The notes under the pieces were generated by a model that was not told where the DNA came from, did not search any database, and saw nothing but the letters and a program-made list of their open reading frames with translations. This document shows positions 3,031 to 59,630 of a stretch of DNA of 64,000 nucleotides, one piece after another. Each line of letters begins with the position of its first letter. Within the stretch, counting starts at the first letter, position 1. The stretch covers positions 2,173,759-2,237,758 of the forward strand of contig LR746266.1 in assembly GCA_902729315.2 (NCBI GenBank), written 5' to 3'. Source of the DNA: Spirodela intermedia. Its lineage: Eukaryota; Streptophyta; Magnoliopsida; Alismatales; Araceae. The position numbers and the translations under genes are program-made.

Positions 3031-3072
3031 GTCCCACATCGCTTGTGTGCCAAAGTTTCAGGTGAATATATA
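3031..3072 (+). promoter_or_regulatory. snRNA-type USE + TATA in LTR-A of element Z
   Basis: GTCCCACATCG at 3031-3041 is an exact match to the plant snRNA upstream sequence element RTCCCACATCG. TATATA follows at 3067-3072 after 25 nt, the spacing seen in Pol III-type plant snRNA genes. It is antisense to the LTR. LTR-D is inserted 31 bp beyond the TATA box, near the expected start site, so this copy's transcription unit is interrupted; the remainder resumes at 5136. Confidence 0.6.
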
Positions 3073-8683: not shown

Positions 8684-8725
8684 TATATATTCGCCTGAAA
8701 AATCAGCACACAACTGATGTGGGAC
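8684..8725 (-). promoter_or_regulatory. USE (10/11) + TATA in LTR-A
   Basis: Minus strand GTCCCACATCA (8715-8725), 25 nt, then TATATA (8684-8689). Confidence 0.45.
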
Positions 8726-14326: not shown

Positions 14327-14368
14327 TATATATTCACCAGACACTTCGGCGCACAAGCGATGTGGGAC
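14327..14368 (-). promoter_or_regulatory. USE + TATA in LTR-A
   Basis: Exact GTCCCACATCG on the minus strand (14358-14368), 25 nt, TATATA (14327-14332). Confidence 0.6.
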
Positions 14369-15532: not shown

Positions 15533-16908
15533 TGGGGCAAGGAGTGGTCAGACACGCGGGAGAAAGGGACTTACTTGAAAATATAATATTACTATATATT
15601 TGCCAGAAACTTCAGCACACAAGCGATGTGGGACTAAACCTGCGTCACACCTTCTCTAGAAAGGCTTTGATGATTTTAATACCTACAATACCCCTTATTT
15701 ATAACAGTGATATATCATGATGACGTCATTTGATAAGGGCATTAGAGTACTTATGTCAATCTCTCTCGTGTAGACATACAATCGGCACAGGTTTGAATCC
15801 TCCCAGAGCCAAAACTCATATTTTTTATCTGATTATCGTGACTTTCCTGCAGATCGTCGGTGAAGGATTAAGCCACCAAAATCGCTAGATTATTGGCAAA
15901 AATCTTGTCAATGCGATTCGTGGAGCATTGTTACTAAAATTGCTGAATGATTCACAATAAAAGGATCACGAGTCAATCGAGTAAAGCATCTTTGATTGAT
16001 CGACGAACAAGCCGTCGTCGGGAAGAGGACGATCTGCTGAGAGATGAGTCGTCACCTTCTGAGAGCATACCGAATGTGATGAAGAGCCTCCTCTTGCTGT
16101 GGAGACCTAAGAATGAAGCTCCTTGACACGTGCCCACCTCCATCTAGCTCCTCTCCATCGGGTGACAGCCGCCGGAGAGTTACAAAGTCGTCATTTTTCT
16201 ACTCTGCTAGGTGACAGCTGCCGGAGATGATTCAAAGACCCATTTCATTGATCTCTAGACTTCACAAGGAGATCTAGAGATTGTCCATGTCGTCTTTGTC
16301 AAAAGAGAGCCTTCAAGGCTGTGGACACTATACGACGATCCTCTCGAACGCTCAAGATTATAGTGCATCGTCGATGCATCGCCGCCACGATGCTGAAATT
16401 TTGTTTTCCTACTTTCAACTTAATTTCCGCTTCATTTAGTGATAATTTATGTGATTTAAATTTACCAAGATATACTTCATTCAATTACGATTCTTTCGGC
16501 TTTTACAAATCTTAATTTGATCAATTAAATCGTCTTTAATCACTTACGTAAGAATCACTGGGTAGAACTCTATTTTTGCCTGATTCGCGTTCGCCGAGCG
16601 TTGACATCATTCTAACGTCCACACCGCTATTTTTCTTTTTTTGTGAATTTTTAATATATTGTATTTTCATTTCTTAGTGTACAATTCATAAAAAATAGTA
16701 TTCTTTGAGAAAAATTCTAAATAATTAACTGATATTATATTACATCCCTGTGATCAACTTGGAAAATTACCACTATTTTTGTAAATTTTATTGAATTATA
16801 ATTGATATATTTGTTCATAAATACTTCTAAATATCAATAAATTCATATTTTCTAGTTTTATAAATTTAAAATTTACATGATCTACTATACAATGACTAAG
16901 TCACGTCA
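15533..16908 (+). mobile_element. LTR-A, missing its first ~370 bp
   Basis: Starts mid-module at TGGGGCAAGGAGTGG and continues to a normal end AAGTCACGTCA (16908). Carries the 115-bp extra segment (15660-15775, with GATGACGTCATTTG). Probably the host into which 13870-15532 inserted. Confidence 0.75.
15593..15634 (-). promoter_or_regulatory. USE + TATA in partial LTR-A
   Basis: Exact GTCCCACATCG (15624-15634), 25 nt, TATATA (15593-15598). The downstream GC-rich segment is cut at 15533, about 60 bp past the TATA. Confidence 0.5.
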
Positions 16909-28656: not shown

Positions 28657-30342
28657 TGACATGACTTAGTCATTGTATAGTAAATCACGTAAATTTTAAA
28701 TTTATAAAACTAAAAAATATGAATTTTCAAATATTTATAAGTACTTATGAACAAATATATCAATTATAACTTAATAAAAATTCCTAAAATAGTGATAATT
28801 TTCCAGGTCGATCATAGAGATGATAATTTCAAAGTTTTTCTCAAAGAATACTTTTTTCTATGAATTTTATACTAGGAAATGAAAATAAAATATATTCAAA
28901 ATTCACAAAAAAAGGAAATAAGGGTGCAGACGTCAAGATGACATCAGCACCTAGCGAACTCGAATCAGGCGAAAATAGAGTTCCGCCCGGCGATTCTTAC
29001 ATAAGTGATTACAAACAATTTAATTGATCAAATTAAGATCTGTAAAAGACGGAAGAATCGTAATTAAATAAAATATATTTTGGTAAATTAAAATCACAGA
29101 AATTATCACGAAATGAAGCGGAAAATAAGTTGAAAGTAGGAAAACAAAGTTCCAGCGTCGCGGCGGCAATGTGTCAGCGATGCATCAGAATCTTGAGTGT
29201 TCGGCGATGTGGACAAGGACGACGTGGGCAATCTCTAGATCTCCTTGCGAAGCCTAGAGATCAATGAAATAGGTCATCGAATCATCTCCAGTGACTATCA
29301 CCCGGCGGAGCAAAAAAATGGTGACTTTGCGGATCTCTAGCAGCTGTCACTTGGCGGAGCAGAAAAACGGCGACTTTGCAGCTCTTTGGCGGCTGTCACT
29401 CAGTGGAGCGGAAAAACGGCGACTTTGCGGCTCTCCAGCAGCTGTCACCTGACGGAGAGGAGCTGGATGGAGGTTGGGTGCGTGTCAGGGAGCTTCATCC
29501 TCAAGTCTGCGCAGCAAGAGGAGGCTCTTCATCGCATCTGGTACGCTCTTAGGAGGTGGCGACTCATCTCCCGGCATATCGTCCTCTTTCAGACGACGGC
29601 TTGTTCGTCGATCAATCGAAGATGATTTACTCGATGGATTCGCAATCCTTTTATCGCGAATCCTTCAGCAATTTTAGTAACAATGCTTCGCGAATCGCAT
29701 TGACGAGATTTTCGCCCAATGATCTAGCAATTCTAGTTGCTTAATCTTTCACCGGCGATCTGCAGGAAAGTCGCGATAATTAGATAAAAATATGAGTTTT
29801 GGCTCTAGGAGGATTCGAACCCGCGCCAGTTGCCCATCCCTTTTGGGGAAGGTGATGCAGGTTTAGTTCCACATCGGTTGTGCGCCGAATTTTTGGGCGA
29901 ATATATAGTAATGTTAGATCTCTAAGCAAGTCCCTCTCTTGCGCATGTACGACCACTCCTTGCCCCACACCAAGCTGGCCACCAGTGATGTGGAAGGGGG
30001 GTGGCACACACGTGCCCTATCGGTCCAAGCCACTCGAGCCCCTACTCGCGGCTACTTCCCGACTACACTTCTGACCCACTCGTGGGCCTGGCTGGCTGAT
30101 GGGTCCCCACATTTTATAATATTTTTATTTTATTTCTATTTCTTTTTCTTTATTTATCTCAAAAGTAAGACTGTAAAAATCATATAAATTCGTATAAAAT
30201 CACATAATTACCCAAAAATTCACGTTAATCAATTGAAAACCACTTTTCACACTTTAACATAAATATAAGTCTATTTATCATGAGTTAAGGGTAAAAATTT
30301 ATTATTTACTAATTATTAACTCATGATAATGAAGACTTATCA
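28657..30342 (-). mobile_element. 3' LTR of element Y
   Basis: TGACATGACTTAG to GACTTATCA, 1686 bp, followed by the PPT. It includes an imperfect duplication of the GTCACTTGGCGGAGC / GGAGCGGAAAAACGGCGACTT motif around 29290-29430, making it slightly longer than the family norm. Confidence 0.85.
29866..29907 (+). promoter_or_regulatory. USE (10/11) + TATA, Y 3' LTR
   Basis: GTTCCACATCG (29866-29876), 25 nt, TATATA (29902-29907). Confidence 0.45.
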
Positions 30343-30353: not shown

Positions 30354-31959
30354 AAATCATTGCTAGTCCCTTATCATTGGAATTACGAAAATAAAAATTT
30401 GCAAATCTCAAACATCATATTTTAATACATGAAAAGAAAATACAATTAGAAATGATGCACCTTTAGACACTTTGAATTCTTATATCAAGCATTTAAGAAC
30501 GATCTCAAGCACTTAAATGTTTAAGCACTCCTTGGAATAACAATCTAGACTTGACTTCTTCTATTCACATCTTTATCACTTCTTCACTCATAGATATATT
30601 TACAAGATGTTCCAATTATCAATACTCATCCAAGAATAATATTGATCTTACATTTCCTTTTTTCCATGGCATGATTTTTGAAGTTTGCACTATATTTCTT
30701 CCTTCTTTTTTTTTTTTATATATAGTGGATAAGTAGCTTTTCCTGTAGACAAATTTCGACAATAAGAATGATGTCTCACACCCTCCATGTGTACTCTTCA
30801 TTTTCAGGGTGACGTGACTTAGTCGTTGTATTTTATAAAATTTATATCTATTAGAAGTATTTTTGGATATTTAGAAGTATTTCTGAATAAATATATCAAT
30901 TATAATTCAATAAAACTTCCAAAAATAGCGGTAATTTTCCAAGTCGATCACAAGGATGTAATATAATATCTGGTAATTATTCAGAATTTTTCTCAATGAA
31001 TACGAGTTTCTATGAATTTTATACTACGAAATGAAAAGGAAATATACTTAAAATTCACGAAAAAAGGGAAATAAGGGTGCGGACGTCAGGATGATGTCAG
31101 CGCCCGGCGAATGCAAATCGGGCAAAAACAGAGTTCCGCTCGACGATTCTTACGTAAGCGATTATAGACGATTTAATTAATCAAATTAAGATCTGTAAAA
31201 GCTGGAAAAATCTTAATTGAACAAAGTATATTTTGGTAAATTAAAAACACAAAAATTATCACTAAATGAAGCGTAAAGTAAATTGAAAGCAGGAAAATAG
31301 AGTTCCAGCGTTGCGACGGTGATGCGTCGGTGATGCACCGAAATCTTAAGCGTTCAGGAGGATCGTCGTGCAGTGTCCACGGCCTCAAAGGCTCTCCTTG
31401 GACAAAGATGACGTGGGCAATCTCTAGATCTCCTTGCAAAGTCTAGAGATTAATGAAATCGGTCGTCGAATCGTCTCCGGCAGCTGTCACCCGGCGGAGT
31501 GGAAAAACGGTGACTTTGCGGCTCTCCGATGGCTGTCACCCGACGAAGAGGAGCTGGATGGAGGTGGGGCGCGTGTTAGGGAGCTTCATCCTCAGGTCCG
31601 CATAGCAAGAAGAGGCTCTTCATCGCATCTGGTATGCTCTCAGGAGGTGGCAACTCGTCTCTCGGCGGATCGTCCTCTTCTCGACGATGGCTTGTTCGTC
31701 GATCAATCGGAGATGATTTACTCGATGGATTCGCGATCCTTTTATCGCGAATCGTTTAGCAATTTTAGTAGCAATGCTCCGCGAATTGCGTTGACAAGAT
31801 TTTCGCCGATGATCTAGTGATTCTCGTTGCTTAATCCTTCACCGGCGATCTGCAAGAAAGTCGCGATAATTAGATAAAAATATATGAATTTTGACTCTGC
31901 GAGGATTCGAACCCGTGCCAGTTGTCCGCCCCTTCTGACGAAGGTGTGACGCGGGTTTA

Positions 31960-32001
31960 GTCCCACATCGCCTGTGCGCCAATTTTTCGAGCGAATATAT
32001 A
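31960..32001 (+). promoter_or_regulatory. USE + TATA in solo LTR-A
   Basis: Exact GTCCCACATCG (31960-31970), 25 nt, TATATA (31996-32001). Confidence 0.6.
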
Positions 32002-34264: not shown

Positions 34265-36054
34265 CATCATTATCCTAACTATCAACATCGATGGCTGTGA
34301 AATTATGATTAGATTTATTAATTTCGTCTCCTACATCTCCCAAATCAACTGATTTTTCCTCACTTGAAATATGTTTTTCTTCATTTCTGTCCTTACTCCC
34401 TTCTACTAAAATTTGGATGATTCTTTCATGATCAGCTATTATTTCTTTATCTAAGGGCTCTTTCTCCTCATCATCCTCACTATATTCATTCATCAATTGT
34501 GAGCAATAAATGATTTTATTCAAATTTTCTGCTACTATATTTTCAGTCTTAATATTCTCATTTACTTCTAATGGCTCATCAATTTCTTCCAATAATTGGA
34601 AATAAGGATCAGGTAAAATATTCTCTCTCAATGTATTCACCGTCCTAACATTTTCATTTCGTGGGTTTTTTTCTAAATTTATCCAGCTAGACTCTTCTTG
34701 TTGAAATCCTATTGTTGGATAGTTTCCTGAATTTTCTATGGGCTGACTGGGTGGCTGTCCCTCTTCTCTCCTATTCTCAAAAGCCTCTATAATTTTTTTT
34801 TGGTGCAACATCATTTGATTCATAGTTTGTTGCATCATTTGACTCATTTGCTGCATCATTTCCATAGCATCAGGTTGGATTTGAGAGGGCTGTTTTTTCT
34901 GAAATTTGTGTTCCTATTTTGGATGAAATTCAAAATTTGAATTGGATCTAAATGCTTCTAGATTTTGAATATTATTTGGGTTTCTCCACGAAAAATTATT
35001 TCCCCAATTAGGATTATAAGAATTAGAAAAATATTCCCTAGTTTTATTAAAATCATGAGGTTCCTGCACTTATTCTTGCCTAGGATGATATTGAAATTCG
35101 AAATGATCATTTTCACCATACATAGGACATGTACTATTTGAATTAAATTGAGGTTAAGAGGCTTTCTAATATTATCAATAAGTAAATCAAGTTTTTTTAA
35201 TATTTGATTAATCCAATTAACCTCATTTCTAAATTTAGAATCATCATTATGATGCAATTCATAAATTTCTCTCTTCTTATCTCTGTCATATAATTCAAAA
35301 GAGGCTTGATCTCTAGAATTTTCACTTAAATTCTCATAAATATTGTAAATCTCATCAAGGGTTTTCTCCATAAAAGCTCCTCCACATATAGAATCAACCA
35401 TATTTCTTATGTTGTTCTAATTATCCATCATAAAAAATTCTATTGAGCTGCCACTTGGGTATAGCATGATCAGGACACATTCTAAGTAAATCTTTGAACT
35501 TTTCCCATGTCTCATACAAAGTTTCTCCTGGTCTTTGAGAAAAACTCCATATATGTTTTCTCATATTGTGAGTTTTTCCTAAGGGATAAAATTTTTGAAG
35601 AAAGACCTATTCTATATTTTTCCAACTAGTTAATTCTCTATCTAATGTCGATAGCCAATGACTAGCTTTGTCCCTAAGTGTATGAGGGAATAATTTCATC
35701 CTCATAATTTCTAGTGTAACTTGAGGGAGATTAACTAAATAACAGACCATATGAAATTTTTCTAAGTGCTGATGAGGTTCCTCTAAAGGAATTCATGAAA
35801 ATTAGGGAGCATTTGAAAATTTTCTGAATTTATTTCGAATTTAACGATGGGTGTTAATAGGACTCTAATATTGGATGCTCTTTGAAATGAATCAGGGATC
35901 TAATAATTTTTCATGGCCATAGGGTTGTTCTCAATTTGACCTGTATTTCCTTCAGGATCAACGAAAATTAATTTTTCTTTCAGATTTTTAGTTTTGAATG
36001 AAATAATGAAAGGATTTTCTAGCCTTGGATGCAAGGATCTTCTACCATACATAA
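34265..36054 (-). pseudogene. gag of element Y, several breaks
   Basis: The N-terminal part from an ATG at 36054 (MYGRRSLHPRLENPFIISFK) carries the Retrotrans_gag region with stops near 35890 and 35790. The middle block at 34958-35401 is open for 147 codons (ENLSENSRDQASFELYDRDK..). The C-terminal block at 34275-34865 is open for 196 codons, starting MEMMQQMSQMMQQTMNQMM (Met/Gln-rich, coiled-coil-like), then QPPSQPIENSGNYP and an acidic tail. It is the longest continuous gag piece in the window. Block order matches Athila gag; no CCHC knuckle was found. Stops and shifts make it non-functional as read. Confidence 0.78.
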
Positions 36055-36261: not shown

Positions 36262-37431
36262 AAATTTGACATGACTTAGTCATTGTATAGTAAATCACGC
36301 AAATTTAAAATTTATAAACCAGAAAATACGAATTTTAGGATATTTAGAAGTATTATTAACAAATATATGAATTATAATTCAATAAAAATTCCAAAAATAG
36401 TGATAATTTTTCCAAGTCAATCATAGGGATGTAATATAATATCTAGTAATTGTTCAGAATTTTCCTCAAAGAATACTATTTTCTATGAATTTTATATTAG
36501 GAAATGAAAAGGAAATATATTTAAAATTCACAAAAAAAGGAAATAATGGTGTGGACGTCAGGATGACGTTAGTGTTCGGCGAACACGAATCGGGTGAAAA
36601 TAGAGTTTCGCTCGGCGATTCTTTCATAAGCGATTACAGACGATTTAATTGATCAAATTAAGATCTGTAAAAGCCGAAAGAATCGTAATGTAATGAAGTA
36701 TATCTTGGTAAATTTAAATCACACAAATTATCACTAAATGAAAAGAAAATTAAGTTGAAAGCATGAAAATAGAGTTCCAACGTCGTGGCAGCGATGCGTC
36801 GGTGATGCACCGGAATCCTGAGCATTCAATTGGATCGTCGTGTAGTGTGCATAGCCTCGAAGGCTCTCCTTGGACAAGGATGACGTGGGCAATCTCTAGA
36901 TCTCCTTGTGAAGCCTAGAGATCAATGAAATGGGTCGTCGAATCATCTCTGGTGGCTGTCACTCAGTGGAGCGGAAAAACGGCGACTTTGCGGCTCTCCG
37001 GCAACTGTCACCTGACGGAGAGGAGCTAGATGGAGGTGGGGCGTGTGTCAGGGAGCTTCATCCTCAGGTCTGCATAGCAAGAGGAGGCTCTTCATCGCAT
37101 TCAGTACGCTCTCAAAAGGTGGCGACTCGTCTCCCAGTAGATCGTCCTCTTCTCGATGATGACTTGTTCGTCGATCAATTGGAGATGATTTACTCGATGG
37201 ATTCGCGATCCTTTTATTGCGAATCCTTCAGCATTTTTAGTAACAATGCTCCGTGAATCGCATTGATAAGATTTTCGCCAATGATCCAGCAGTTCTGGTT
37301 ACTTAATCCTTTCACCGGTGATTTGCAGGAAAGTTGCGATAATCAAATAAAAATATGACTTTTTGCTCTAGGAGGATTCGAACCTGTGCCAGTTGCTCAC
37401 CCCTTTCTGGGGAGGGTGTGACGCGAGTTTA

Positions 37432-37473
37432 GTCCCACATCGGTTGTGCGCCAAAGTTTCTAGTGAATATATA
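37432..37473 (+). promoter_or_regulatory. USE + TATA, Y 5' LTR
   Basis: Exact GTCCCACATCG (37432-37442), 25 nt, TATATA (37468-37473). Confidence 0.6.
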
Positions 37474-37496
37474 GTAATGTTCACAGCCGGCTGATC

Positions 37497-37686
37497 AAGT
37501 CCCTTTCTCGCTCGTGTATGACCACTCCTTGTCCCACAGCCGGCTTGCCACCGGTGACGTGGGAGGGGAATGGTGCACACGTGCTGCTATTGGTCCTAGC
37601 TGCTCAAGCGCTTGCTCGTGGCTATTCCCCGACTGCGCTTCCGACTCGCCTGCAAGCCCGCCTGGCCAGCGGGTCCCCTCCATTTT
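37497..37686 (+). ncRNA. Candidate Pol III-type RNA, Y 5' LTR
   Basis: GC-rich segment from the predicted start to T4 at 37683-37686, followed closely by T5 at about 37691. Confidence 0.3.
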
Positions 37687-37911
37687 GCTATTTTTATTTT
37701 AATTTCTTTTCCTTCATTTATCTCAAAAGTAAGACTGTAAAAATTATATAAATTCATATAAAATCACATAATTACCTAAAAATTCACGTTAATCAATTGA
37801 AAACCACTTTTCAAACTTTAACACAAATATAAATCTATTTATCATGAGTTAAGGCTAAAACTATATTATTTACTAATTATTAACTTATGATAATGAAGAC
37901 TTATCAGGCAA

Positions 37912-38902
37912 CTATCACCCGACGGAGAGGAGCTAGATGGAGATGGGGCGCATGTTAGGAAGCTTCATCCTCAAGTCCGCACAGCAAGAGGAGGCTCTTC
38001 ATCGCATCCGGTACACTCTCAAGAGGTGGTGACTCGTCTCTTAGTGGATCGTCCTCTTCCCGATGATGGCTTGTTTGTCGATCAATCATAGATGATTTAC
38101 TCAATGGATTCACAATCTTTTTATCGCAAATCATTCAGCAATATTAGTAACAATGCTCTATGAATCGCGTTGACAAGATTTTCGTCGACGATCTACTGAT
38201 TCAAGCGGCTTAATCTTTCACTAGCGATCTATAAGAAAGTCGCAATAATTAGATAAAAATATGAGTGTTGACTCTAGGAGGATTTGAACCCATGCCGGTT
38301 GCCCACCTACATGAGAAAGATTGAAAGAAGTACTCTAATGTCCTTATCAAGTGACGTCATCTTAGTATATCTCTATTATAACTAAGGGGTATTTTAGGTA
38401 TTAAAATCTTCAAAGCCTTTCAATGGAAGGTGTGACACAGATTTAGTCCCACATTGCTTGTGCGCTGAAGTTTTGGGTGAATATATAGTAATATCACATT
38501 TGCAAATAATGAGTCTCTTTCTCGCGTGTGTATGACCACTCCTGGCCACTAGTGACGTGGAAGGGGAGTGGTCCACACGTGCCCCTATCGGTCCTAGCTG
38601 CTCGAGCCCCTGCTCGCGGCTCCCCCTAACTACACTTCCAACCCACTTGCGAGCTCGGCTGACCAGCGGGTCCCCCTTTTACTATATTTTTATTTTAATT
38701 TTTTTTTCTTCATTTATCTCAATAATTGGACTATAAAAATTATATAAATTCATAGAAAATCACATAATTACCCAAAAATTCACGTTAATCAATTGAAAAC
38801 AACTTTTCACAATTTAACACAAATATATGTCTATTTATCATGAGTTAAGGCTAAAACTATATTATTTACTAATTATTAACTCATGATAATGAAGACTTGT
38901 CA
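37912..38902 (-). mobile_element. 5' LTR of element X, right portion
   Basis: Continues the LTR interrupted at 28656, from CTATCACCCGACGGAG to GACTTGTCA (38902). Carries the 115-bp subfamily insert (about 38310-38425). Confidence 0.8.
38446..38487 (+). promoter_or_regulatory. USE (10/11) + TATA, X 5' LTR
   Basis: GTCCCACATTG (38446-38456), 25 nt, TATATA (38482-38487). Confidence 0.45.
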
Positions 38903-39569: not shown

Positions 39570-41077
39570 TGATGTGACTTTGAGTTTGTATAGTAAATCA
39601 CGCAAATTTAAAATTTATAAAACTAGAAAAGACTAATTTTTAGATATTTAGAAGTATTTTTGGACAAATATATTAATTATAATTCAATTAAAATTTCAAA
39701 AATAGTGGTAATTTTCCAGATCAATCATAGGGATGTAATATAATATTGGATAATTTTTCAAAACTTTCCTCAAAGAATACGAGTTTTTATGAATTTTATA
39801 CTAAGAAATTAAAATAAAATATATTTAAAATTCACGAAAAAGAGAAATAGAGGTGCAGACATTAGGATGATGTCAGCACCTGACAAATGGAAATCTCATA
39901 GAAATAGAGTTCTACTCAATGATTCTCACATAAGTGATTACAAATGATTTAATTGATCAAATTAAGATCTATAAAAGTTGAAAGAATCATAGTTGAATGA
40001 AGTATAGCTTAGTAAATTTAAATCACACAAATATCACTAAATGAAGCAAAAATTAAGTTAAAAGTAGGAAAACAGAGTTCCAACATCACGGTGGCGATGC
40101 ATCAGCGATGCACAAAAATCTTGAGCATTCGGGAGGATTGTCATACAATATCCATGACCTTAAAGGCTCTCCTTAGACAAGGACAACATGGGCAATCTCT
40201 AAATCTCCTTGCAAAGTCTAGAGATGAATAAAATAGGTGATCAAATTATCTATGATGGCTTTCATCTAGTAGAGTAGAAAAATGATAATTTTATGACTCT
40301 TCGGCAGCTATCATTTGATAGAGGGGAGTTGGATGGAGGTGGGGCGCATGTCGAGGAGCTTCATCTTTAAGTCCGCACAGCAAGAGGAGGCTCTTCATCA
40401 CATCTGGTATGCTCTTAAGAGGTGACAACTTGTCTCCCTATGGATCATCCTCTTCTCAATGACAACTTGTTCATCGATCAATCGAAGATGATTTACTTGA
40501 TGGATTCACGATCCTTTTATCGCGAATCGTTTAGTAATTTTAATAACAATACTCTACGAATCATGTTGACGAGATTTTCGCCGATGATCTAGTGATTCTG
40601 ACAACTTAATCCTTCATCGACGATCTACAGGAAATTCACGATAATTAGATAAAAATACAAGTTTTGACTCTAAGAAGATTCAAACCCACACTGGTTGCCT
40701 GCCTATATGAGAGATATTAAAATAAATACTCTAATGCCCTTATTGAATGACGTCATCATGGTATATCTTTATTATAACTAAGGGATAGTTTAGGTATTAA
40801 AATCTTTGAAGCCTTTCAGGGGAAAGTGTGATGTGGGTTTAATCTCACAATGCTTGTTGATAAGTCTTCATTATCATGAGTTAATAATTAGTAAATAATA
40901 TAGTTTTAGCCTTAACTCATAATAAATAAACTTATATTTGTGTTAAAGTGTGAAAAGTAGTTTTCAGTTGATTAACGTAAATTTTTGAGTAATTATGTGA
41001 TTTTATACGAATTTATAAGATTTTTAGTCTGACTTTTGAGATAAATGAAGAAAAAGAAATAAAAATCAAAATATAGC

Positions 41078-41286: not shown

Positions 41287-41328
41287 TATATATTCGCCCG
41301 AAACTTCAGCGCACAAGCGATGTGGGAT
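41287..41328 (-). promoter_or_regulatory. USE + TATA in solo LTR-A
   Basis: ATCCCACATCG (41318-41328) fits the R of RTCCCACATCG; 25 nt; TATATA (41287-41292). Confidence 0.58.
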
Positions 41329-45654: not shown

Positions 45655-45696
45655 GTCCCACATCACTTGTGCGCCAATTTTTCGGGCGAATATATA
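45655..45696 (+). promoter_or_regulatory. USE (10/11) + TATA in LTR-A
   Basis: GTCCCACATCA (45655-45665), 25 nt, TATATA (45691-45696). Confidence 0.45.
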
Positions 45697-48930: not shown

Positions 48931-49419
48931 AGGAAAATTGGTTTCTTTGTGAATAGTTATTAAAGCTAGATTTATATGTTTTAATTAGTTTTGTTATTTG
49001 CTTTTATTTTTTTAACTTGCAGAATAAATATGAGATATATTGTTAAATTCAAAAGTCTGAAGTTAGAGTACTTAGTGTAATTTTTTTATTATTAAAATAA
49101 AAAAATAATATAAAATTTCTGTCCACTGGCAAGCGGGCCTTGCTCTACACATGTGCGTCACTCCCCTTCCACGTCTTGGTGGCCAACTGGTCATGGGGTG
49201 ATAAGTCTTCATTATCATGAGTTAATAATTAGTAAATAATATAGTTTTAGCCTTAACTCGTGATAAATAGACTTATATTTGTGTTAAAGTGTGAAAAGTG
49301 GTTTTCAGTTGATTAATGTGATTTTTTGGGTAATTATGTGATTTTATACAAATTTATATGATTTTTCCAGCCTTACTTTCGAGATAAATGAAGAAAAAGA
49401 AATAAAACTAAAATATTGC

Positions 49420-49607
49420 AAAATGGGGGAGACCCGCCGGCTAGCCGGGCCCGCAAGCGGGTCGGAAGCTCAGTCGGGGAGTAGCCGCGAGTAGGGAATC
49501 GAGCGGCTTGGACCGATAGGGGCACGTGTGCGCCACTCCCCTTCCACGTCACCGGTGACCAGCCGGCTGTGGGGCAAGGAGTGGTCGTACACGCGAGAGA
49601 AGGGACT
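49420..49607 (-). ncRNA. Candidate Pol III-type RNA, reference LTR-A copy
   Basis: About 188 nt on the minus strand, from the predicted start roughly 23-25 nt past TATATA (49630-49635) to the T4 opposite 49420-49423. Visible stems: CCACTCC with GGAGTGG enclosing a CCGGC/GCCGG-rich arm, then CCCGC-AA-GCGGG. The AGCCGC..GCGGCT arm seen in other copies is slightly altered here. A TTTTT just after the TATA could cause early termination in this copy. It matches no RNA family I can name. Confidence 0.3.
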
Positions 49608-49629
49608 TTGCTTAAAAAGCTAACATTAC

Positions 49630-49671
49630 TATATATTCGCCTGAAAAATCGGCGCACAACCGATGTGGGAC
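49630..49671 (-). promoter_or_regulatory. USE + TATA, reference LTR-A copy
   Basis: Exact GTCCCACATCG (49661-49671), 25 nt, TATATA (49630-49635). The TATA is nearly palindromic, so it could also serve the LTR's own sense promoter. Confidence 0.6.
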
Positions 49672-50968
49672 TAAACCCGCGTCACACCTTCCTCAGAAGA
49701 GGCGGACAACCGGCGCGGGTTCGAATCCTCCCAGAGTCAAAATTCATATATTTTTATCTGATTATCGCGACTTTCCTGTAGATCGCCGGTGAAGGATTAA
49801 GCAACCAGAATCGCTGGATCATCGGCGAAAATCTCGTCAACGCGATTCGCGGAGCATTGCTACTAAAATTGCTGAACGATTCGCGATAAAAGGATTGCGA
49901 ATCCATCGAGTAAATCATCTCCGATTGATCGACGAACAAGCCGTTGTCGGGAAGAGGACGATCCGCCGAGAGACGAGTCGCCACCTCTTGAGAGCGTACC
50001 AGATGCGATGAAGAGCCTCCTCTTGCTACGCGGACCTGAGGATGAAGCTCCTTGACACGCGCCCCACCTCCATCCAGCTCCTCTCCGTCGGGTGACAGCC
50101 GCCGGAGAGCCGCAAAGTCGCCGTTTTTCCGCTCTGCCGAGTGACAGCCGCCGGAGACAACTCATCAACCCATTTCATTGATCTCTAGACTTCGCGAGAA
50201 GATCTACAGATTGCCCACGTCGTCTTTATCCAAGGAGAGCTTTCGAGGCTATAGACACTAGACAACGATCCTCCCAAACGCTCAGGATTCCAGTGCATCG
50301 CCGACACATCGCCGTCGCGACGCCGGAACTCTGTTTTCCTGCTTTAAACTTACTTTACACTTCATTTAGTGATATTTCTTTGTGATTTTAATTTACCAAA
50401 ATATACTTTGTTCTATTACGATTCTTTCGGCTTTTACAGATCTTAATTTGATTAATTAAATCGTCTGTAATCGCTTACGTAAGAATCGCCGGGCGGAACT
50501 CTGTTTCCGCCCGATTCGCGTTCGCCGGGCGCTGACGTCATCCTGACGCCCGCACCCTTATTTCCCTTTTTAGTGAATTTTAAATATATTTCATTTTTAT
50601 TTCCTAGTATAAAATTCATAGAAAATCGTATTCATTGAGAAAAATTCTGAATAATTACCAGATATTATATTACATCCCTGTGATCGACCTGGAAAATTAC
50701 CGCTATTTTTGGAAGTTTTATTGAATTATAATTGCTATATTTATTTAGAAATACTTCTAAATATCCAAAAATTCGTATTTTCTAGTTTTATAAATTTTAT
50801 ATTTGCGTGATTTAATATACAACGACTGAGTCACGTCATGGGGCAAGGAGCGCCTATATACACGTGTGCACACGAGGGTGGACCACCTTATTGCCTTCTC
50901 CCAAGATGGTCTTGGGCATTATTTTATTTCAAGAGAAGGGAATCTCTGCTGAGAGACCGTAGCTTTAA

Positions 50969-51010
50969 TTTATATTCGGCATATGTTCCGAAATATTTTT
51001 TATGTGGGAC
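50969..51010 (-). promoter_or_regulatory. USE-like + TATAAA in LTR-B
   Basis: Minus strand GTCCCACATAA (9/11, 51000-51010), exactly 25 nt, then TATAAA (50969-50974). The surrounding sequence is otherwise well diverged from LTR-A, so box identity and spacing are the conserved features. Confidence 0.5.
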
Positions 51011-54106: not shown

Positions 54107-54148
54107 TATATATTCGCCTGAAAAATCGGCGCACAACCGATGTGGGAC
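54107..54148 (-). promoter_or_regulatory. USE + TATA in solo LTR-A
   Basis: Exact GTCCCACATCG (54138-54148), 25 nt, TATATA (54107-54112). Confidence 0.6.
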
Positions 54149-59588: not shown

Positions 59589-59630
59589 TATATATTTGCC
59601 TGAAAAATCGGCGCACAACCGATGTGGGAC
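59589..59630 (-). promoter_or_regulatory. USE + TATA in solo LTR-A
   Basis: Exact GTCCCACATCG (59620-59630), 25 nt, TATATA (59589-59594). Confidence 0.6.

Follow-up and report, generated by a model that had tools for sequence, protein, structure and literature searches.

The LTRs of a retrotransposon family, here called LTR-A, carry on their antisense strand a USE of the plant snRNA type (RTCCCACATCG) followed after 25 nt by TATATA, and to judge from its letters and spacing this module very likely represents a promoter of the U6 type, whether inherited or convergent. Active elements probably use it, in antisense, as a type 3 (U6-type) promoter for Pol III. Two sequence features of plant type 3 Pol III promoters, the USE RTCCCACATCG and a TATA at Pol III spacing, are present; transcription, the polymerase responsible, the ends of the RNA, and a benefit to the element are inferred. 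A Pol III-type snRNA promoter in LTR-A had been proposed in a sequence-only reading of this DNA; as far as sequence goes, the proposal is well supported by the gap, the TA that precedes the USE, the slow change of the USE on internal branches of a tree of copies, and a second repeat family with the module.

Occurrence of the Module and Identity of Its Host

The 64,000-nt stretch of DNA analyzed here (the window) had been listed as holding 13 USE sites, and a motif scan of the window recovered precisely these 13, nine with the exact word and four with one mismatch. TATATA follows after exactly 25 nt in 13/13, compared with a mean of 0.01 USE-25-TATATA sites in shuffled windows when up to two mismatches are allowed. 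The interval 49420–49671, to which the module had been assigned, does contain both the module and the predicted transcript, but the whole LTR is larger, spanning 1640 bp at 49199–50838.

Features of the window (positions in the window)
Feature	Position	Strand	Basis or remark
Reference solo LTR (LTR-A), TGATAAG...ACGTCA, target duplication TGGGG	49199..50838	+	Ends common to many copies, TG...CA, 5-bp duplication
USE GTCCCACATCG, antisense in reference LTR-A	49661..49671	-	Motif scan
TTTA directly upstream of USE	49672..49675	-	Seen in 56/56 copies examined
TATATA, 25 nt past USE	49630..49635	-	Palindromic; possible sense TATA too
Predicted start of the antisense RNA (G of GTCCCTTC; 23 nt past TATATA)	49606..49606	-	Inferred
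Predicted ~187-nt antisense RNA, to first TTTT	49420..49606	-	Inferred
Long hairpin of predicted RNA	49523..49595	-	Family B too
Sense B-box-like GGTTCGAATCC in LTR-A	49718..49728	+	51/63 copies with 0-1 mismatch; reversed word 0/63
TATAAA of family-B copy hosting reference solo LTR	50969..50974	-	
Decayed USE GTCCCACATAA of family-B copy	51000..51010	-	
USE-25-TATATA	3031..3072	+	
USE (1 mismatch)-25-TATATA	8684..8725	-	
USE-25-TATATA	14327..14368	-	
USE-25-TATATA	15593..15634	-	
USE (1 mismatch)-25-TATATA	29866..29907	+	
USE-25-TATATA	31960..32001	+	
USE-25-TATATA	37432..37473	+	
USE (1 mismatch)-25-TATATA	38446..38487	+	
USE-25-TATATA	41287..41328	-	
USE (1 mismatch)-25-TATATA	45655..45696	+	
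USE-25-TATATA	54107..54148	-	
USE-25-TATATA	59589..59630	-	

LTR-A is an LTR retrotransposon by its TG...CA ends, 5-bp target duplications, PBS-like stretch, and gag (PF03732), features that it shares with Athila-type elements; the difference lies in the USE/TATA module, which our literature searches found described for none of these. Exact 5-bp target duplications flank 4 of 15 copies of the 1640-bp LTR (TGGGG, GTAGA, GCATG, and CTTGT), one further copy has a duplication matching at 4/5 bases, and the rest are truncated, nested, or unclear. A PBS-like AATTTTGG(C/T)GC stretch follows the 3' end of three LTR copies, all on the minus strand (36267–37906, 1864, and 27917), and downstream of one of these sits a gag piece (Pfam PF03732, E 2.9e-10) at 35424–35606 (-). 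Because of the PBS-like stretch and the position of gag in these minus-strand copies, the sense strand of the copy at 49199–50838 is the plus strand, which bears out the claim that USE and TATATA run antisense to LTR-A. From its PBS and gag, the family is probably of the Ty3, Athila type. For 12 of the 22 ORFs of at least 120 aa, a Pfam scan gave no match above the cut-off.

Two LTR pairs, 31528/37000 and 54174/59646, have an identical spacing of 5472 bp, and for three of these four LTRs the target duplications (one with 4/5 bases) suggest separate solo LTRs. The solo LTR at 40858 (duplication CTTGT) is nested between the USE and TATA of another copy, and that at 49199 (TGGGG) in the hairpin of a family-B copy.

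The 136.5-Mb genome contains 1916 exact 17-letter LTR-A start words, 858 exact TCCCACATCG-N25-TATATA modules (10-letter USE; reversed-pattern control 0), and 1023 occurrences of TTTAGTCCCACATCG (control 1). The USE with TATAWA at gaps of 20–24 gave 47 rows (control 1) and at gaps of 26–34 gave 23 (control 4), a few places being counted twice. These off-25 rows include a U6 gene (L032) and a U2 gene (L041), and many of the others, judged by eye, resemble either family B or copies of LTR-A that have acquired indels.

Spacing Relative to snRNA Genes

Control genes were drawn from ten U6 and ten U2 matches in the same genome, of which two U6 genes (L031 and L032) and five U2 genes were used. The exact USE is present in 2/10 U6 matches, namely L031 and L032, and the other eight may be pseudogenes; among the five U2 genes two have identical upstream sequence and L041 alone has the exact USE. 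The monocot promoter element RGCCCR was found nowhere in the 135 nt upstream of the RNA in L031, L032, and the five U2 genes, and dicot-type promoter rules were therefore applied. Dicot promoters of 70 bp with USE and TATA are sufficient, with exceptions traced to USE changes, according to excerpted text of PMC12268498.

The distance between USE and TATA is 27 nt in L031 and 23 nt in L032, with 51 nt from USE to RNA, and 30–33 nt in the five U2 genes, with 63–66 nt from USE to RNA. In the reference LTR-A the gap is 25 nt, and 54 nt separate the USE from GTCCCTTC. The LTR gap falls in the U6 range (23, 27) and outside the U2 range (30–33). Published distances of the USE upstream are 54–55 bp for Pol III and 66–67 bp for Pol II genes, with measuring points that may differ from those used here (PMC10745700, in excerpt). 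The eight letters of GTCCCTTC are those that start U6; in the reference LTR-A, 23 nt separate them from TATATA, and in L032, which has the same eight-letter start, the distance is 22 nt. RTCY is found 22–25 nt after TATA in 41/56 sampled LTR copies and is absent from 15, compared with 108/497 arbitrary 18-nt windows, and copies L093 and L125 are without the GTCCC block. TA directly precedes the USE in 7/7 U6 and U2 genes (as TTTA in four) and in 56/56 LTR copies. LTR-A resembles plant U6-type genes, including L031 and L032 of its own genome, in USE, TATA, a gap of 25 and, in the reference copy, the GTCCCTTC start, but its module lies antisense inside an LTR, exists in hundreds of copies, and precedes a body that is not U6 (Rfam).

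The same block could instead serve the element itself as a sense promoter for Pol II, with TATATA as the sense TATA, the USE complement CGATGTGGGAC at a start ∼31 nt downstream of it, and the hairpin arms as upstream enhancer repeats. TATATA is a palindrome and may thus also act in sense transcription by Pol II; a start 31 nt from its first T falls on 49661, the edge of the USE, and the upstream hairpin arms are conserved like the USE. We nevertheless consider this account unlikely, as it leaves unpredicted the 11/11 match to RTCCCACATCG, the TA of snRNA genes, the gap in the U6 range, and the antisense RTCY at 22–25 nt. Furthermore, the variant TATAAA, present in 5/63 sampled copies and in family B (whose TATAAA loci came from a pick by the TATAWA pattern), keeps an antisense TATA and reads TTTATA in sense, yet this is still TATA-like. 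A SNAPc-type promoter read by Pol II, or a SNAPc/TBP site that aids sense transcription, would account for the same elements, since the USE and TATA also serve plant Pol II snRNA genes (excerpted text of PMC5079582), but the gap of 25 falls between the values of the two U6 genes and below those of the five U2 genes, and we regard this account as very unlikely.

Turnover of the Module among Copies

The sample comprised the top 60 entries in the list of LTR starts, which come from a single contig (C1) and were selected regardless of the USE, together with 11 window copies, and 63 of these 71 passed a region filter; because the filter asks for a USE-like word, the sample leans upward for the USE. 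The USE is intact in 26/63 copies and TATATA in 52/63. By thirds of nearest-neighbor divergence, the USE is intact in 13/21, 13/21, and, among the most diverged, 0/21. Departures from the USE are C>T or G>A in 57/65 cases, the commonest being G>A at the last base (20), and loss of the last USE base left one tested natural U6 promoter inactive, as described in an excerpt of PMC12268498.

In a branch test the tree was built from sequence outside the module, and its internal branches represent spreading lineages. On these, changes per site were 0.91 for the USE, 2.24 for the spacer, 3.44 upstream, and 2.26 between TATA and start, with 1.04–1.15 for the hairpin arms and 0.61 for the AT-rich LTR end. 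Non-CpG C/G sites of the USE had 3 changes versus 10.5 expected on internal branches (P 0.035) and 26 versus 28.6 expected on terminal branches (P 0.38), and 7/10 internal-branch changes in the USE fall at its CpG. An expectation that the USE decays more slowly than its neighbors thus holds for spreading lineages, in which it is slower than the spacer and nearby flanks, but not for C/G in dead copies, which decay at the neighbor rate, since internal changes are few and terminal ones as expected. The A/T sites of TTTA plus USE had 0 changes versus 8.2 expected on internal branches (P 0.01) and were slow on terminal branches too (2 versus 18.7 expected); this terminal slowness is not predicted by selection in active copies alone and may be caused by the USE-based filter.

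Constraint is not peculiar to the module: the arms of the hairpin and the AT-rich end of the LTR are equally slow or slower, and in conservation the USE window takes rank 31 among 276 windows and TATATA rank 67 among 281. The USE-to-TATA length is unchanged in 59/63 copies; other 42-nt windows average 20 changed copies, and 32/250 of them match this stability.

A Second Repeat Family

Five loci (L141–L145) with a different spacer and gaps of 23–26 came from a search for the USE/TATA pattern, which by construction gives them an exact USE. They form one repeat family, family B, presumably also an LTR; the reference solo LTR sits inside a decayed window copy of this family. Identity between family B and LTR-A is 96% for TTTAG (TTTGG in L141) and 71% for the hairpin, versus 39% for the spacer and 50% from TATA to start. 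The TCCC block is present in some family-B loci, and TTTAG, the hairpin, and part of the block lie at homologous places. Two family-B copies selected without the USE retain 9/11 USE letters and a TATA at 25, and two further loci (L146 and L147, gap 23) seem to be ancient relatives of LTR-A. The two families appear to be homologous, and the caveat attached to the sequence-only reading, which grants the module persistence but no independent origin, therefore stands.

These comparisons bear on two further accounts. If part of an snRNA gene promoter was taken up by an ancestral LTR and has hitchhiked since, the decay of many copies and their shared ancestry would be expected; the slower change of the USE relative to the spacer and nearby flanks on internal branches would not, nor would a module kept in two families with 39% identity between their spacers (the family-B loci having been picked by the USE/TATA pattern), and we find such a relic improbable. 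A chance likeness spread by copying, in which a single ancestor accounts for all copies, would have to yield the 11-mer, a correctly spaced TATA, and a U6-like start jointly, and the module is near-intact in the two family-B copies chosen without it; we give this account almost no weight.

Predicted Transcript

In the reading as a U6-type Pol III promoter, the LTR would carry a type 3, gene-external promoter in antisense, with SNAPc on the USE and TBP/TFIIIB on the TATA box 25 nt further on. The RNA would begin at (G)TCCC, ∼23 nt downstream of the TATA, traverse ∼185 nt of GC-rich hairpin sequence, and terminate at T-runs that precede the 5' end of the LTR. The module would be retained in transposing lineages, with methylation-type changes eroding dead copies. 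More tentatively, the LTR of this lineage may retain, in antisense, a Pol III gene of the U6 type whose structured, uncapped RNA of ∼187 nt would serve the element, perhaps as a decoy, a silencing modulator, or a chromatin opener.

The predicted RNA folds well, yet little better than its shuffles (z −1.64), and the alignment fold is −84 versus −64.6 (sd 4.1) over 60 column shuffles. Family B retains 107/126 hairpin pair cells versus 35–78 for slid pairings, with few double changes, and one hairpin pair is broken in all five of its copies; hairpin covariation across LTR-A and family B is weak, and the hairpin may matter at the level of RNA or of DNA. Maintained RNA structure within LTR-A was rejected, as the pair changes resemble independent deamination. 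The first TTTT lies at a median of 182 nt past the predicted start in 56 copies, a position expected from composition, and a TTTT-free body was set aside as evidence because composition alone gives it in 451/500 shuffles; two longer T4-free antisense stretches occur. An Rfam covariance search of the reference LTR, 49199–50838, returned no match at E≤1, and a known noncoding RNA in the predicted body was rejected accordingly.

Relation to Known Systems

A plant LTR family with such a promoter is not known to have been described, and in our searches an LTR with a USE/TATA promoter was absent among the matches listed in the open-licence PMC literature. Cassandra TRIM elements carry a 5S promoter in the LTR. 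LTR-A resembles them in having a Pol III promoter, here a predicted one, in its LTR; the Cassandra promoter differs in being an internal 5S (type 1) promoter, and a TRIM of this type was rejected for LTR-A, as the same Rfam search (E≤1) found no 5S rRNA sequence in 49199–50838. The interface-induced MIRNA loci of Cuscuta campestris have a U6-like promoter (Hudzik 2023, as described in PMC10226582 and in excerpted text of PMC10745700). They are, like LTR-A, non-snRNA loci with a USE at Pol III distance, but they are not LTR ends, and according to the same two commentaries both the RNA and the need for the promoter are demonstrated there. In avocado, primer PaRBIP-6R of the retrotransposon-insertion marker PaRBIP-6 contains CGATGTGGGAC, the USE complement, so that this motif may also be present close to LTRs elsewhere among plants; the marker differs in being known from the primer alone, in LTR or flank, and the excerpted text does not treat it as a promoter (PMC12692301).

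If the proposed promoter is real, each new full insertion adds two copies of it. If it is active, LTR-A, with 858 exact modules in 136 Mb of genome, would be a family of LTRs that disperses a gene-external Pol III promoter of the snRNA type, and would supply new Pol III transcripts; speculatively, U6-like promoters at unrelated loci, the Cuscuta MIRNA genes for instance, might have arisen in a similar way.

Yeast Ty elements target their integration to Pol III genes. Integration targeting to the LTR-A module was considered but found no support: of 64 distinct left flanks, 17 lie within LTR sequence, one of them in family B and 16 spread over LTR-A between positions 408 and 1368, without clustering at the module.

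Other Features of the Element

Rfam snoR71 matches at 35461–35567 and 1048–1154 lie antisense to internal retroelement sequence, the former overlapping the gag piece PF03732 at 35424–35606 (-), and they probably reflect similarity of the retroelement to that Rfam model and not snoRNA genes. Stop-free antisense frames of 135 aa at 49754–50161 (-) and 129 aa at 31428–31817 (+) occur in two LTR copies, apparently at the same place in the LTR. The B-box-like GGTTCGAATCC, in the 25 copies listed, lies mostly 43–47 or 150–155 nt from the USE.
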